DNA of 45,365 nt from Chryseobacterium gleum (GTDB taxonomy: Bacteria > Bacteroidota > Bacteroidia > Flavobacteriales_D > Sanyastnellaceae), in assembly GCA_945874695.1 (NCBI GenBank), contig CAMCHP010000017.1:1-45365 (forward strand), in the 5' to 3' direction. The position numbers and the translations under genes are program-made. Shown here piece by piece: positions 5,983-10,304 of the stretch. The notes beneath the pieces were generated by a model. The model worked only from the letters and a program-made list of their open reading frames with translations. It was not told the origin of the DNA and made no database searches. Positions within the stretch are counted from its first letter, which is position 1. Each line of letters starts with the position of its first letter.

Positions 5983-7446
5983 TTAGCGCACCCCGTGCAT
6001 GAGTTTGTTCAAAGGCTTGGCCAAGAGCGCAATCAAGATTGCAAAGCCAATGAGTACAAAGCCAAGGGTAGAGAATGTACTTATGTATTTATCAAGGCCT
6101 TCGGCCATCCCAAGTGCTTCCGCACCTTCTTCCGCACCCGTCAAAGAAGCGATTGCTCCTGCGAGGTAATTTGCCATCGCAAACGACAGAAACCATCCGC
6201 CCATGGCGGTACCCGAAATATTCTGAGGCGCAAGCTTGGTAACCATTGACAAGCCAATTGGAGACAAGAACAACTCACCGGTTGTGTGGAGCAAGTAAAG
6301 GAAGACCAAGGTCAACAAAGGAACTTTGAAATCTGATTCGAACTGCAGACCTATGATTGTTACCAAGAAACCCAGTCCAAGCTGCAAAATACCCAAAGAG
6401 AACTTCATCGGAATCGATGGGTTTTTTCCAATGTTTGAAAGCTTCACCCACATCACCGAGAAGATGGAACCGAAAATAATGATGAATGCGGGGTTGAAGA
6501 ACTGAGTCATTGACGCCGGCATCATCCACCCGAAAATTTCACGATTCACGTTGCGATCAGCAAAGAGGGTTAAAGAGGTGCCTGCTTGTTCGAAACACGC
6601 CCAAAACACCACATTGATGACCATCATGATCACCAGGGCGATCATACGGTCTTTCCACACCGTGCCCGCTTTTGCCCCAGCAGTAATAAGCTGGACGGCC
6701 ACACCTGCGAAGATGGCCAAAAGCAAGTACATCATGATTTCACTTTTCGAAATCAAAAAGTACAAACCTGGGATTGTAAGCACCGAGATAATCGTGATCA
6801 ATTGCACAGCATTTAAGCCTGCAAAAACCTTCTTCTTTCCGGCTTCGGTAATTTCGAGTCCTTTCGCGGCTGCATAGCTTTTTCGTCCGCCCCAGAAAAT
6901 AAACAGACCCAATAACATACCAATCCCTGCAAGGCCAAAGCCTTTATCAAAGCCGTATGTTTCACCAACATAGGCTACAATGGTTGTCGCCATAAGGGCT
7001 CCAACGTTGATACCAATGTAGAATATCGTGAAGCCAGAGTCTCTTCGGGGATCGTTCTCTTCGTAAAGTTTACCGACAATCGTTGAAATATTGGCTTTGA
7101 AGTAGCCGTTTCCAACAATGATTGCCCCCATGCCGTAGAGTAGCCAGTCTTCGGTGCCTCCCAAGATCAAGAACTCTCCAATGGCCATTAGAACGGCACC
7201 AAGCATAATGGCATACCGATACCCAAGGAACTTGTCTGCCATGCGTCCTCCCAAAACAGGCGCTGCATAAACCAATGCAGTATACGCACCATAAATCATA
7301 GTTGCCTCTGCATCTCCTTTCATGAGCTGCTTTACCAAGTAAAGCGTCAACAAAGTACGCATGCCGTAATAACAGAAGCGTTCCCACATTTCCGAGAAGA
7401 ACAAGGTCATTAGACCTGCTGGGTGTCCTTTTACAAGTGTTGCCAT
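5983..7446 (-). CDS. POT/PTR2 family proton-coupled di/tripeptide transporter
   Basis: A 487-residue inner-membrane symporter of the proton-dependent oligopeptide family (DtpT type), importing di- and tripeptides with protons. The family signature ExxERFxYYG is intact at residues 19-28 (EMWERFCYYG). A second typical block, FTIFYIGINVGALM, lies in transmembrane helix 5. About 14 hydrophobic segments are visible. The start at 7446 (MATLVKGHPAGLMTLFF) matches the family N-terminus. With the secreted DPP-IV-like peptidase next door (8033-10231) it makes a plausible pair: dipeptides released outside the inner membrane can be taken up here. That coupling is inferred from neighbourhood. Confidence 0.93.
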   Translation of the reverse strand: MATLVKGHPAGLMTLFFSEMWERFCYYGMRTLLTLYLVKQLMKGDAEATMIYGAYTALVYAAPVLGGRMADKFLGYRYAIMLGAVLMAIGEFLILGGTEDWLLYGMGAIIVGNGYFKANISTIVGKLYEENDPRRDSGFTIFYIGINVGALMATTIVAYVGETYGFDKGFGLAGIGMLLGLFIFWGGRKSYAAAKGLEITEAGKKKVFAGLNAVQLITIISVLTIPGLYFLISKSEIMMYLLLAIFAGVAVQLITAGAKAGTVWKDRMIALVIMMVINVVFWACFEQAGTSLTLFADRNVNREIFGWMMPASMTQFFNPAFIIIFGSIFSVMWVKLSNIGKNPSIPMKFSLGILQLGLGFLVTIIGLQFESDFKVPLLTLVFLYLLHTTGELFLSPIGLSMVTKLAPQNISGTAMGGWFLSFAMANYLAGAIASLTGAEEGAEALGMAEGLDKYISTFSTLGFVLIGFAILIALLAKPLNKLMHGVR

Positions 7447-7590: not shown

Positions 7591-8020
7591 AAACCACGGA
7601 TTGAACAGATTCACACAGATTTTTGGGTTGTAGCGTTGAACATTCGTGTAAATCCCTCCAATCTGCGGTCAGCTCAAACCACGGATTGAACAGATTGAAC
7701 AGATTGAACAGATTTTGAGCGTTACAGAGTTGAGCCTCCGTGTAAATCCTTCCAATCTGCGGTCAGCTCAAACCACGGATTGAACAGATTCACACAGATT
7801 TTTAGGTTGTAGCGTTGAACATTCGTGTAAATCCCTCCAATCTACGGTCAGCTCAAACCGCGGATTGAACAGATTGAACAGATTTTGAGCGTTACAGAGT
7901 TGAGCCTCCGTGTAAATCCTTCCAATCTGCGGTCAGCTCAAACCACGGATTGAACAGATTCGCACAGATTTTGAGCGGTGCAAGGTTGAGCCTCCGTGTA
8001 AATCTTTAAAACCTGTGGTT
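7591..8020. repeat. five-unit tandem array of 81-94-bp imperfect palindromes
   Basis: Five head-to-tail units: 7591-7675 (85 bp), 7676-7769 (94), 7770-7854 (85), 7855-7939 (85), 7940-8020 (81). Each begins AAACC(A/G)CGGATTGAACAGATT and ends GTAAATC...CAATCTGCGGT; the two ends are imperfect reverse complements, so each unit can fold into one long hairpin. Units 1 and 3 share one centre (GGTTGTAGCGTTGAACATTC) and units 2 and 4 another (GAGCGTTACAGAGTTGAGCC), giving an A-B-A-B-A' order. Unit 5 has a B-like centre and a decayed right end. The length differences come from 9-bp GAACAGATT micro-repeats (three in unit 2). The array ends 12 nt from the stop of the DPP-IV-like gene, so it probably forms that transcript's 3' end. 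Confidence 0.95.
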
Positions 8021-8032
8021 CAAAGAAACCAA

Positions 8033-10231
8033 TTAGAGGTTCGCAAGAATGTAGTCATTGATCATCGTGAATAGGTGCAATCGTGTATTGCCTCCGTAAA
8101 TTCCGTGATTGCGATCAGGATAGATGAAGAGATCAAATTGCTTGTTGGCTTTCACAATGGCATTGATCATTTCCATGGTATTCTGGTAATGGACATTATC
8201 ATCGGCACTGCCATGGATGAGCAAATATTTGCCCTTCAGCTTTTCAACATGATTGATTGGTGAATTATCGTCGTACCCTGCTGGGTTCTCAGCCGGTGTG
8301 CGCATAAACCGTTCGGTGTAGATGCTGTCGTAATAACGCCAGTTCGTAACGGGGGCAACAGCAATGCCCATTTTATAATAATCGGCTCCTTTGGTCATGC
8401 AGAGGGATGACATGTAGCCTCCATAACTCCACCCCATAATTCCCAAACGGTCAGGGTCGACATAGCTTTGGCTCTGTAAATATTTAGCGAGGTCAATGAA
8501 ATCTTCGGTTTCCAACTTGCCCAATTGCAAGTAGGTGGCGTGTTTGAAGTCGCGACCGCGGTTCATCGTTCCACGCGGATCACAGCTCACAACGATATAG
8601 CCCTGTTGCGCTAGCATTTGGTGGAAGAGGAAGTTTGCGCTTCCATAAGCGTCTTTAACCATATTGCTACCGGGGCCCCCATAAATATTAACGAAAACAG
8701 GATACTTCTTCGATGGATCGAAATTGGCGGGCTTAATCATCCAGCAATTCAATGCGGTACCGCCGCTGTTGGTGAAAGTGAAAAATGTCTTTTCGCTTAA
8801 ATTATAGCTTGCCAAAGTTGATTTCAGTTTGGCATTATCTTTCAATACCCGTACTTCTTTGCCTTTCTGGTCATGCAAGCTGATGTAATAGGGGGTGTTG
8901 GCATCAGAGTGATAATTGATGAAGTAATTGTAACTACTGCTGAATGCGGCTGAGTTGCTTCCTTTCTTTGAAGTGAGCTTGAGCGGCTTGCCCTTTTTCA
9001 AGCCTACCGCGTAAACATGCTCTTCAAGCGCACTTTCTTGGGCAGAACTGTAGTAAAGGGTCGACTTAGACTCATCAAATCCATAAAACTCGATTACGTC
9101 CCACATTCCTTGGGTCACCTGGCGGATGAGCTTACCAAACATGTTGTAATGATAGATGTGGTTATAACCGTCGCGCTCTGAATTCCACAAGAAACCGCTG
9201 CCGTCTTTCAAGAAGATCAAATTGTCGTTGACATCGATGTACGTAGCCGCTTTTTCTTGATAAATTGAGCGTGTAGCAACCTGGAATGGATCAGTGGCTG
9301 CCATGTCTGCAAGTAAAAATTCGAGTTCATTTTGATGGCGATTCATGCGCATGATGCACAACTGGTCATTCGAGCTTGTCCACTTGATCCGCGGGAAATA
9401 GATATCATTGTTTTCGCCTGTATTCACGGTCAAAACGCGTTCACTTTCAGAATCATAAATGTGAATGCTCACCTTGCTATTGTCTTCGCCCGCTTTCGGG
9501 TATTTGAATGTATATTGATCAGGGTAAAGTTCACCGTACATGGCCATTTGAAATTGTTTCACACGCGACTCATCGAAGCGGTAGTATGCCAGGCGGTCGC
9601 CTTTTGGTGACCAATATAAACCGTTGTCAAAACCGAATTCTTCTTCGTACACCCAGTCTGTGGCACCATTGATAATTTGATTGGCGCTCCCGTCACTCGT
9701 AACCTGAACCTCAGCGCGGCTGGTTAAGTTTACAATGAAAATGTTGTTTGACCGGACGAAAGCCACTTGATCTGCGGCAGGAGAAAATTGCGCCAAGCGT
9801 TGCTTGCCTTTCGAAAAGTCTGTCAGCGGAAATGCACGCGTTTTGTTGATGTCGTACACATAATAGTTCGCTTGGGTACTGTGGCGGTAAATTGATTCCC
9901 CGTCGGTTTCAATGAGCAGTTTGAGCTCGTCATCGCTGAAAGTGTATCCGTCAATGCCTCGTTTGGCATCACCGAAAATGCTCAGCGATGAGGCAATAAC
10001 TGCAACGCGTTCACCGCTCGCATAGTTGAACTTGACAATTTCAGATCCGTTCTCTTCTGAGTACTCCATGCTGGTGTAATGCAACCCGTCGTTCATTGAT
10101 CGCACGTCACTCACATAATCCATGCGAAATTCACCCGAGTACCATATCTTCTCGTTGGTAAGTGTTTGGCTGAATAACGCGCTGCTTGCGGTAGTCATTA
10201 AAAGAAGGGAGGCCACTAAAAAACGGTTCAT
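8033..10231 (-). CDS. secreted S9B dipeptidyl-peptidase-IV-like protease
   Basis: Serine peptidase expected to cut dipeptides, often X-Pro, from peptide N-termini in the periplasm or outside the cell. The 732 residues include a signal peptide (MNRFLVASLLLMTTASSALFSQ), an N-terminal eight-bladed beta-propeller (DPPIV_N, about 80-440) containing the substrate-clamping pair in DWVYEEEFG, and a C-terminal alpha/beta hydrolase domain. The triad is Ser602 in GWSYGG, Asp677/678 in GSADDNV and His709 in DRNHGI. The start is ATG 10231; a GTG two codons upstream is less likely. It is paralogous to the peptidase at 26727-28880. The 3' end meets a hairpin repeat array instead of a standard terminator. 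Confidence 0.94.
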   Translation of the reverse strand: MNRFLVASLLLMTTASSALFSQTLTNEKIWYSGEFRMDYVSDVRSMNDGLHYTSMEYSEENGSEIVKFNYASGERVAVIASSLSIFGDAKRGIDGYTFSDDELKLLIETDGESIYRHSTQANYYVYDINKTRAFPLTDFSKGKQRLAQFSPAADQVAFVRSNNIFIVNLTSRAEVQVTSDGSANQIINGATDWVYEEEFGFDNGLYWSPKGDRLAYYRFDESRVKQFQMAMYGELYPDQYTFKYPKAGEDNSKVSIHIYDSESERVLTVNTGENNDIYFPRIKWTSSNDQLCIMRMNRHQNELEFLLADMAATDPFQVATRSIYQEKAATYIDVNDNLIFLKDGSGFLWNSERDGYNHIYHYNMFGKLIRQVTQGMWDVIEFYGFDESKSTLYYSSAQESALEEHVYAVGLKKGKPLKLTSKKGSNSAAFSSSYNYFINYHSDANTPYYISLHDQKGKEVRVLKDNAKLKSTLASYNLSEKTFFTFTNSGGTALNCWMIKPANFDPSKKYPVFVNIYGGPGSNMVKDAYGSANFLFHQMLAQQGYIVVSCDPRGTMNRGRDFKHATYLQLGKLETEDFIDLAKYLQSQSYVDPDRLGIMGWSYGGYMSSLCMTKGADYYKMGIAVAPVTNWRYYDSIYTERFMRTPAENPAGYDDNSPINHVEKLKGKYLLIHGSADDNVHYQNTMEMINAIVKANKQFDLFIYPDRNHGIYGGNTRLHLFTMINDYILANL

Positions 10232-10304
10232 GTGCACGTGATTTTATCGTTACTTTCGAGCCTCGAAGATAGCAATCCTCTTATGATAATTCGATTTTAA
10301 GGGC

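Follow-up and report, generated by a model that had tools for sequence, protein, structure and literature searches.

Short palindromes dispersed through bacterial genomes have their closest described counterparts in the REP/REPIN-RAYT systems, in MITEs and in the 23S rRNA IVS elements with four-helix-bundle genes. REPs typically carry a GTAG/CGTC head (PMC3733652). The palindrome family to which we assign the array described below probably resembles REP/REPIN-RAYT in that its short palindromes are scattered through the genome and also flank a gene for a single-domain nuclease, and in both systems gene-less copies are presumably served in trans. The nucleases differ, that of REP/RAYT being an HUH Y1 enzyme and that of the GxxExxY family a PD-(D/E)XK protein (PF13366). 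The array units also differ from REPs: they consist of 76-94 bp of 9-10-bp microrepeats, and the GTAG/CGTC head is absent from their consensus. MITEs may provide a second likeness, the elements being short and gene-less with inverted ends as in the gene-bearing form; the arms are common to gene-less units and to gene-bearing GxxExxY cassettes in other genomes. Unlike MITEs, they have no known transposase, their arms are helical-turn microrepeats and they are placed just after stop codons. Finally, the 23S rRNA IVS and other four-helix-bundle elements (TIGR02436, PF05635) likewise hold a small gene between inverted arms and insert co-directionally, but they differ in protein family and repeat sequence. 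A PF05635 search gave no match in the genome studied here, nor in any control genome.

The window, a stretch of 45,365 nucleotides from a Chryseobacterium gleum assembly, carries the array between a peptidase gene and a peptide transporter gene (Table 1). The original prediction described alternating hairpin units with a period of 85 bp. We located five imperfect palindromes in the order A-B-A-B-A', with two centre types alternating, and TRF returned a period of 85 with a score of 487. A covariance model trained on these five units and sister units recovered all five on the plus strand in a whole-genome search (E 1e-13 to 1e-17). Same-type pairs are nearly identical (Table 1), whereas cross-type pairs share 87-90% and unit 5 shares 79-87% with the others. 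The first dimer (179 bp) and the second (170 bp) are 98.2% identical across 170 aligned bases. Since GAACAGATT occurs three times in unit 2, twice in unit 4 and once in each of units 1, 3 and 5, the two dimers differ in length only by a single 9-bp repeat. Copying by a dimer of ~170 bp, as predicted, is therefore well supported, and the predicted variation in microrepeat number was confirmed. The pentanucleotide TCAAA flanks the array on both sides and recurs in the spacers.

Table 1. Positions of the array units, spacers and neighbouring genes in the window.
Feature	Position	Strand	Basis
POT/PTR2 peptide transporter gene, co-directional with the peptidase gene, downstream of the array	5983..7446	-	
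Unit 1, type A palindrome; left arm CCACGGATT GAACAGATT CACACAGATT, right arm TTCGTGTAAATCCCTCCAATCTGCGGT	7594..7669	+	
Spacer CAGCTCAAA between units	7670..7678, again 7764-7772, 7849-7857, 7934-7942	+	
Unit 2, type B palindrome; microrepeat GAACAGATT x3	7679..7763	+	
Unit 3, type A; 98% identity with unit 1	7773..7848	+	
Unit 4, type B; microrepeat GAACAGATT x2; 99% identity with unit 2	7858..7933	+	
Unit 5, diverged; type-B-like centre (86-87% to units 2/4); adjoins the peptidase stop	7943..8019	+	
S9/DPP-IV-like peptidase gene (DPPIV_N + Peptidase_S9)	8033..10237	-	domain search

The array starts 12 nt past the peptidase stop, exactly as had been noticed at the outset. The peptidase-transporter pair is conserved in relatives that have no array: in those inspected (L009-L014, L017, L020) a similar transporter starts a short way past the peptidase. 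An nhmmer scan of 80 relative loci detected no units.

A genome-wide search for the unit, proposed together with the original prediction, showed that it is not confined to one locus. The covariance model identified ~25 units in the genome, arranged as six tandem arrays plus a lone copy, although the assembly comprises 128 contigs and its tandem copy numbers may be wrong. The exact arm pattern gave 26 matches and a reversed control pattern none. All arrays have the arms in common, while the loop differs from array to array. Most begin within ~60 nt past a stop codon, and none occupies a divergent intergenic region; those on C1, C12 and C30b and the single copy on C109 lie between convergent genes. 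The suspected recurrence elsewhere in Bacteroidota was also borne out, 31 of 392 sampled genomes being repeat-positive. Two further arm fragments were found on contig C2. The C2 half-units (L295:780-960 and L296:760-960), ~70 kb apart with common flanks GCGATCTCCGCATCGCG..CCGCGGTTAAAACCCGCGGTT..GTTTCGGAGA, are a longer duplicated stretch containing one arm.

GxxExxY genes are frequently found among CACAGATT-type repeats, and this link prompted a TIGR04256 profile search, run before the loci were inspected. To our knowledge the family has no known role, and it is not known to be associated with a repeat. Three open-access papers name GxxExxY and concern other subjects, judging by their titles, one of them mentioning the family in passing; the letters of the repeat appear in no open-access paper. 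The only GxxExxY gene of the genome (C12:18048-18398; TIGR04256/PF13366) lies next to an array, which begins ~25 bp after it. Its product is a PDDEXK_3 protein (3.6e-43) in which D79, E89 and K91, the expected PD-(D/E)XK residues, invariant in the family, are intact; the PDB holds no sequence relative. The gene adjoins the C12 array rather than being enclosed by arms, which counts against the reading that we prefer below. Of 392 sampled Bacteroidota genomes, 189 carried GxxExxY, which also occurred on plasmids of four other phyla. It was present in 29/31 repeat-positive versus 160/361 repeat-negative genomes (p=4e-8), a comparison confounded by clade; the two repeat-positive genomes in which it had no match (G005, G088) likewise count against that reading. 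The family was absent from 50,697 phage records in one query and from viral contigs in another.

Inverted repeats flank GxxExxY genes generally. At 22 of 46 loci the flanks scored above the 99th percentile of a null built from mismatched flank pairs, and exact repeats lay within 500 bp of 5 GxxExxY genes against 0.18 expected (p=1.2e-6). Although arm sequences vary from genome to genome, the arms follow a common grammar: two to four microrepeats with the consensus CRCRRAK recur at intervals of 9-10 bp, roughly one turn of the helix, in forward orientation upstream of the gene and inverted downstream of it. At 56 loci CRCRRAK occurred 7.1 times per kb upstream and 8.6 downstream, compared with 0.9 far from the gene. 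This motif was derived from the first locus set, hence it was retested on 27 fresh loci from across the phylum, where densities were 9.6 and 10.1 per kb versus 1.1-1.2 far away and 20/27 loci had at least two copies on each side. As a control, CRCRRAK arms on both sides were found at 0/29 four-helix-bundle (TIGR02436) loci, and we rejected the four-helix-bundle gene as a partner of the array repeat. The window arms (CCACGGATT/GAACAGATT/CACACAGATT with the inverted partner) fit this CRCRRAK-like grammar with its 9-10-bp spacing, except that the middle repeat, GAACAGATT, departs from the consensus. Most GxxExxY loci of the window's own family do not have the exact CCRCRGATT motif, and many belong to the RRAG class. 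At L111 and L113, from that family, GxxExxY is flanked by CGCAAAG-class palindromes (AACGCAAAGTCCGCCAAG..CTTTGCGCCCTTTGCGTT).

The same arrangement was observed on plasmids, where GxxExxY with inverted arms was detected in Bacteroides, Bernardetia and Sphingomonas, and more weakly in Treponema. The order is radA-arm-GxxExxY-arm in Bacteroides finegoldii and ade-arm-GxxExxY-arm in Bernardetia. The Sphingomonas parapaucimobilis cassette (L261:1449-1914), with GCGAAG-type arms, sits inside the fatty-acid operon as fabD-arm-GxxExxY-arm-fabG. Complete gene-less palindromes flank GxxExxY on both sides in Gemmatirosa. Clear arms were not seen in the Fusobacteria and Prevotella plasmid cases.

Placement of the window array agrees with placement at GxxExxY loci. 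The upstream neighbour was co-directional at 66/79 GxxExxY genes and the first arm began a median of 11 nt past its stop, figures that come from simple ORF calling and have no random-gene control matched to them. In the window, the array lies between co-directional genes, 12 nt after the stop.

These results point to a GxxExxY-linked origin, and the array probably belongs to the GxxExxY nuclease palindrome family as a member without a gene, MITE-like and non-autonomous, that has been amplified in tandem. The element class behind it is apparently small, mobile and undescribed. Its gene-bearing form would consist of a left arm, a gene for a GxxExxY PD-(D/E)XK nuclease and a right arm. The nuclease would recognise the helically phased arms, possibly in the form of an extruded cruciform, and cut them to mobilise or copy them, acting in cis on gene-bearing copies and in trans on gene-less ones. 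The element itself would be promoterless and expressed by read-through from the host operon. In the window, the 170-bp dimer would have multiplied by unequal recombination or slippage and the number of 9-bp microrepeats would shift by slippage; across this genome, unequal recombination is the probable cause of tandem array growth. More tentatively, and at somewhat less than even chances, GxxExxY nucleases may be the mobility proteins of widespread minimal elements, with one PD-(D/E)XK gene between helically phased CRCRRAK arms, that insert just after host stops and ride host operons, gene-less palindromes being their non-autonomous copies. Such a nuclease-repeat link would account for many unexplained intergenic palindromes, and GxxExxY palindromes would form a PD-(D/E)XK counterpart to REP/RAYT. 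Tying GxxExxY to a defined, co-inherited repeat makes its function, arm recognition or cleavage, directly testable.

Turnover of these elements was visible at one site. The gap that separates miaB from a sigma-54-type regulator gene, compared across 60 Flavobacterium genomes, held nuclease cassettes with either of two arm classes (RGAT and RAAT), gene-less palindromes of roughly 65-150 bp or another ORF, or was empty, the empty state being a short gap. These states required 29 changes on the host tree (best tree, with row L211 wrongly entered as gene-less), and the turnover could reflect allelic exchange rather than transposition. At L240 a complete gene-less palindrome directly adjoins a GxxExxY element that has the same arms. 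At eight loci of this site (L195, L198, L203, L210, L216, L218, L220, L221) an ORF for a membrane protein of 169-173 aa between GTTTCAGGTTTCAAG palindromes replaces GxxExxY. A single site seen occupied, gene-less and empty, together with a fixed placement relative to the stop codon, would suit a homing-like selfish gene, which would be a special case of the explanation above: the nuclease would cut empty post-stop sites and spread by double-strand-break repair, leaving gene-less palindromes as relics of gene loss and arrays as passive products of recombination. We regard this version as rather unlikely. A common target sequence beyond the stop-codon position was not established, and gene-less units outnumber the gene by ~25 to 1 in the genome, which suggests that gene-less copies disperse as well.

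Alternatively, the palindromes might be mobilised by other means, such as a reverse transcriptase, a transposase of the RAYT/IS200 type or mere recombination, and GxxExxY would be one of several passengers caught between arms. Inverted repeats of other sequence also surround four-helix-bundle genes and the ~170-aa membrane ORF, so the nuclease may be just one gene carried along in a palindrome phenomenon of broader scope. However, arm class (RGAT, RAAT or RRAG) tracks the nuclease tree, with 3 changes compared with 27 after shuffling, and the four-helix-bundle genes have no CRCRRAK arms. Two nuclease clades within one genome, G304, have different arms each. The one Y1_Tnp gene of the window genome speaks for this reading, but it is IS200/IS605-like (67.8 bits, cut-off 55), scored 35.7 against a cut-off of 80 as a REP-transposase and has no unit at its locus; we rejected a RAYT link. 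Mobilisation of this kind is accordingly judged improbable.

We see still less to recommend a role in RNA, in which the hairpins would stabilise or process the peptidase-transporter mRNA, as an RNase III site or exonuclease barrier, and be retained for it. The array does lie between two co-directional genes and folds strongly on the transcribed strand (z about -2 to -4), and most units of the other three arrays of clear direction in this genome likewise fold better on that strand. Yet arm folding at 54 + 27 GxxExxY loci showed no bias between sense and antisense strands (p=0.13 and 0.23, in opposite directions), and a general RNA-level constraint is not supported over these 81 loci, though an RNA role may still apply at this operon. 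The copies between convergent genes and the relatives without hairpins at the peptidase-transporter operon also argue against it, and Rfam 15 contained no matching family (highest score 19.5 bits, gathering cut-off 48.5). An intrinsic terminator was rejected: the array has no hairpin with a U-tract, and the predicted absence of an ordinary terminator held, no terminator-like site or T-tract being found inside it. The original prediction did not foresee the GxxExxY link, the CRCRRAK grammar with its 9-10-bp spacing or the post-stop placement between co-directional genes. Of the readings first offered for the array, the selfish repeat survives, probably in the form of a GxxExxY-linked mobile palindrome, while the 3'-end stabiliser, or any role for RNA structure, is disfavoured by the missing T-tract terminator and by the lack of a sense-strand pairing advantage at GxxExxY loci.

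The four-helix-bundle genes (L303-L332) proved to lie between inverted microrepeats of their own, of ~9 bp, for example AGATTCTGAGATGCTAAGATTCTGAG and GTACTATGTACTATGTACTAAGTACTAAG. Ten of 29 loci exceeded the 99th percentile of the null, and the upstream neighbour was co-directional in 26/28. With their own microrepeats, these genes possibly represent a parallel element class.
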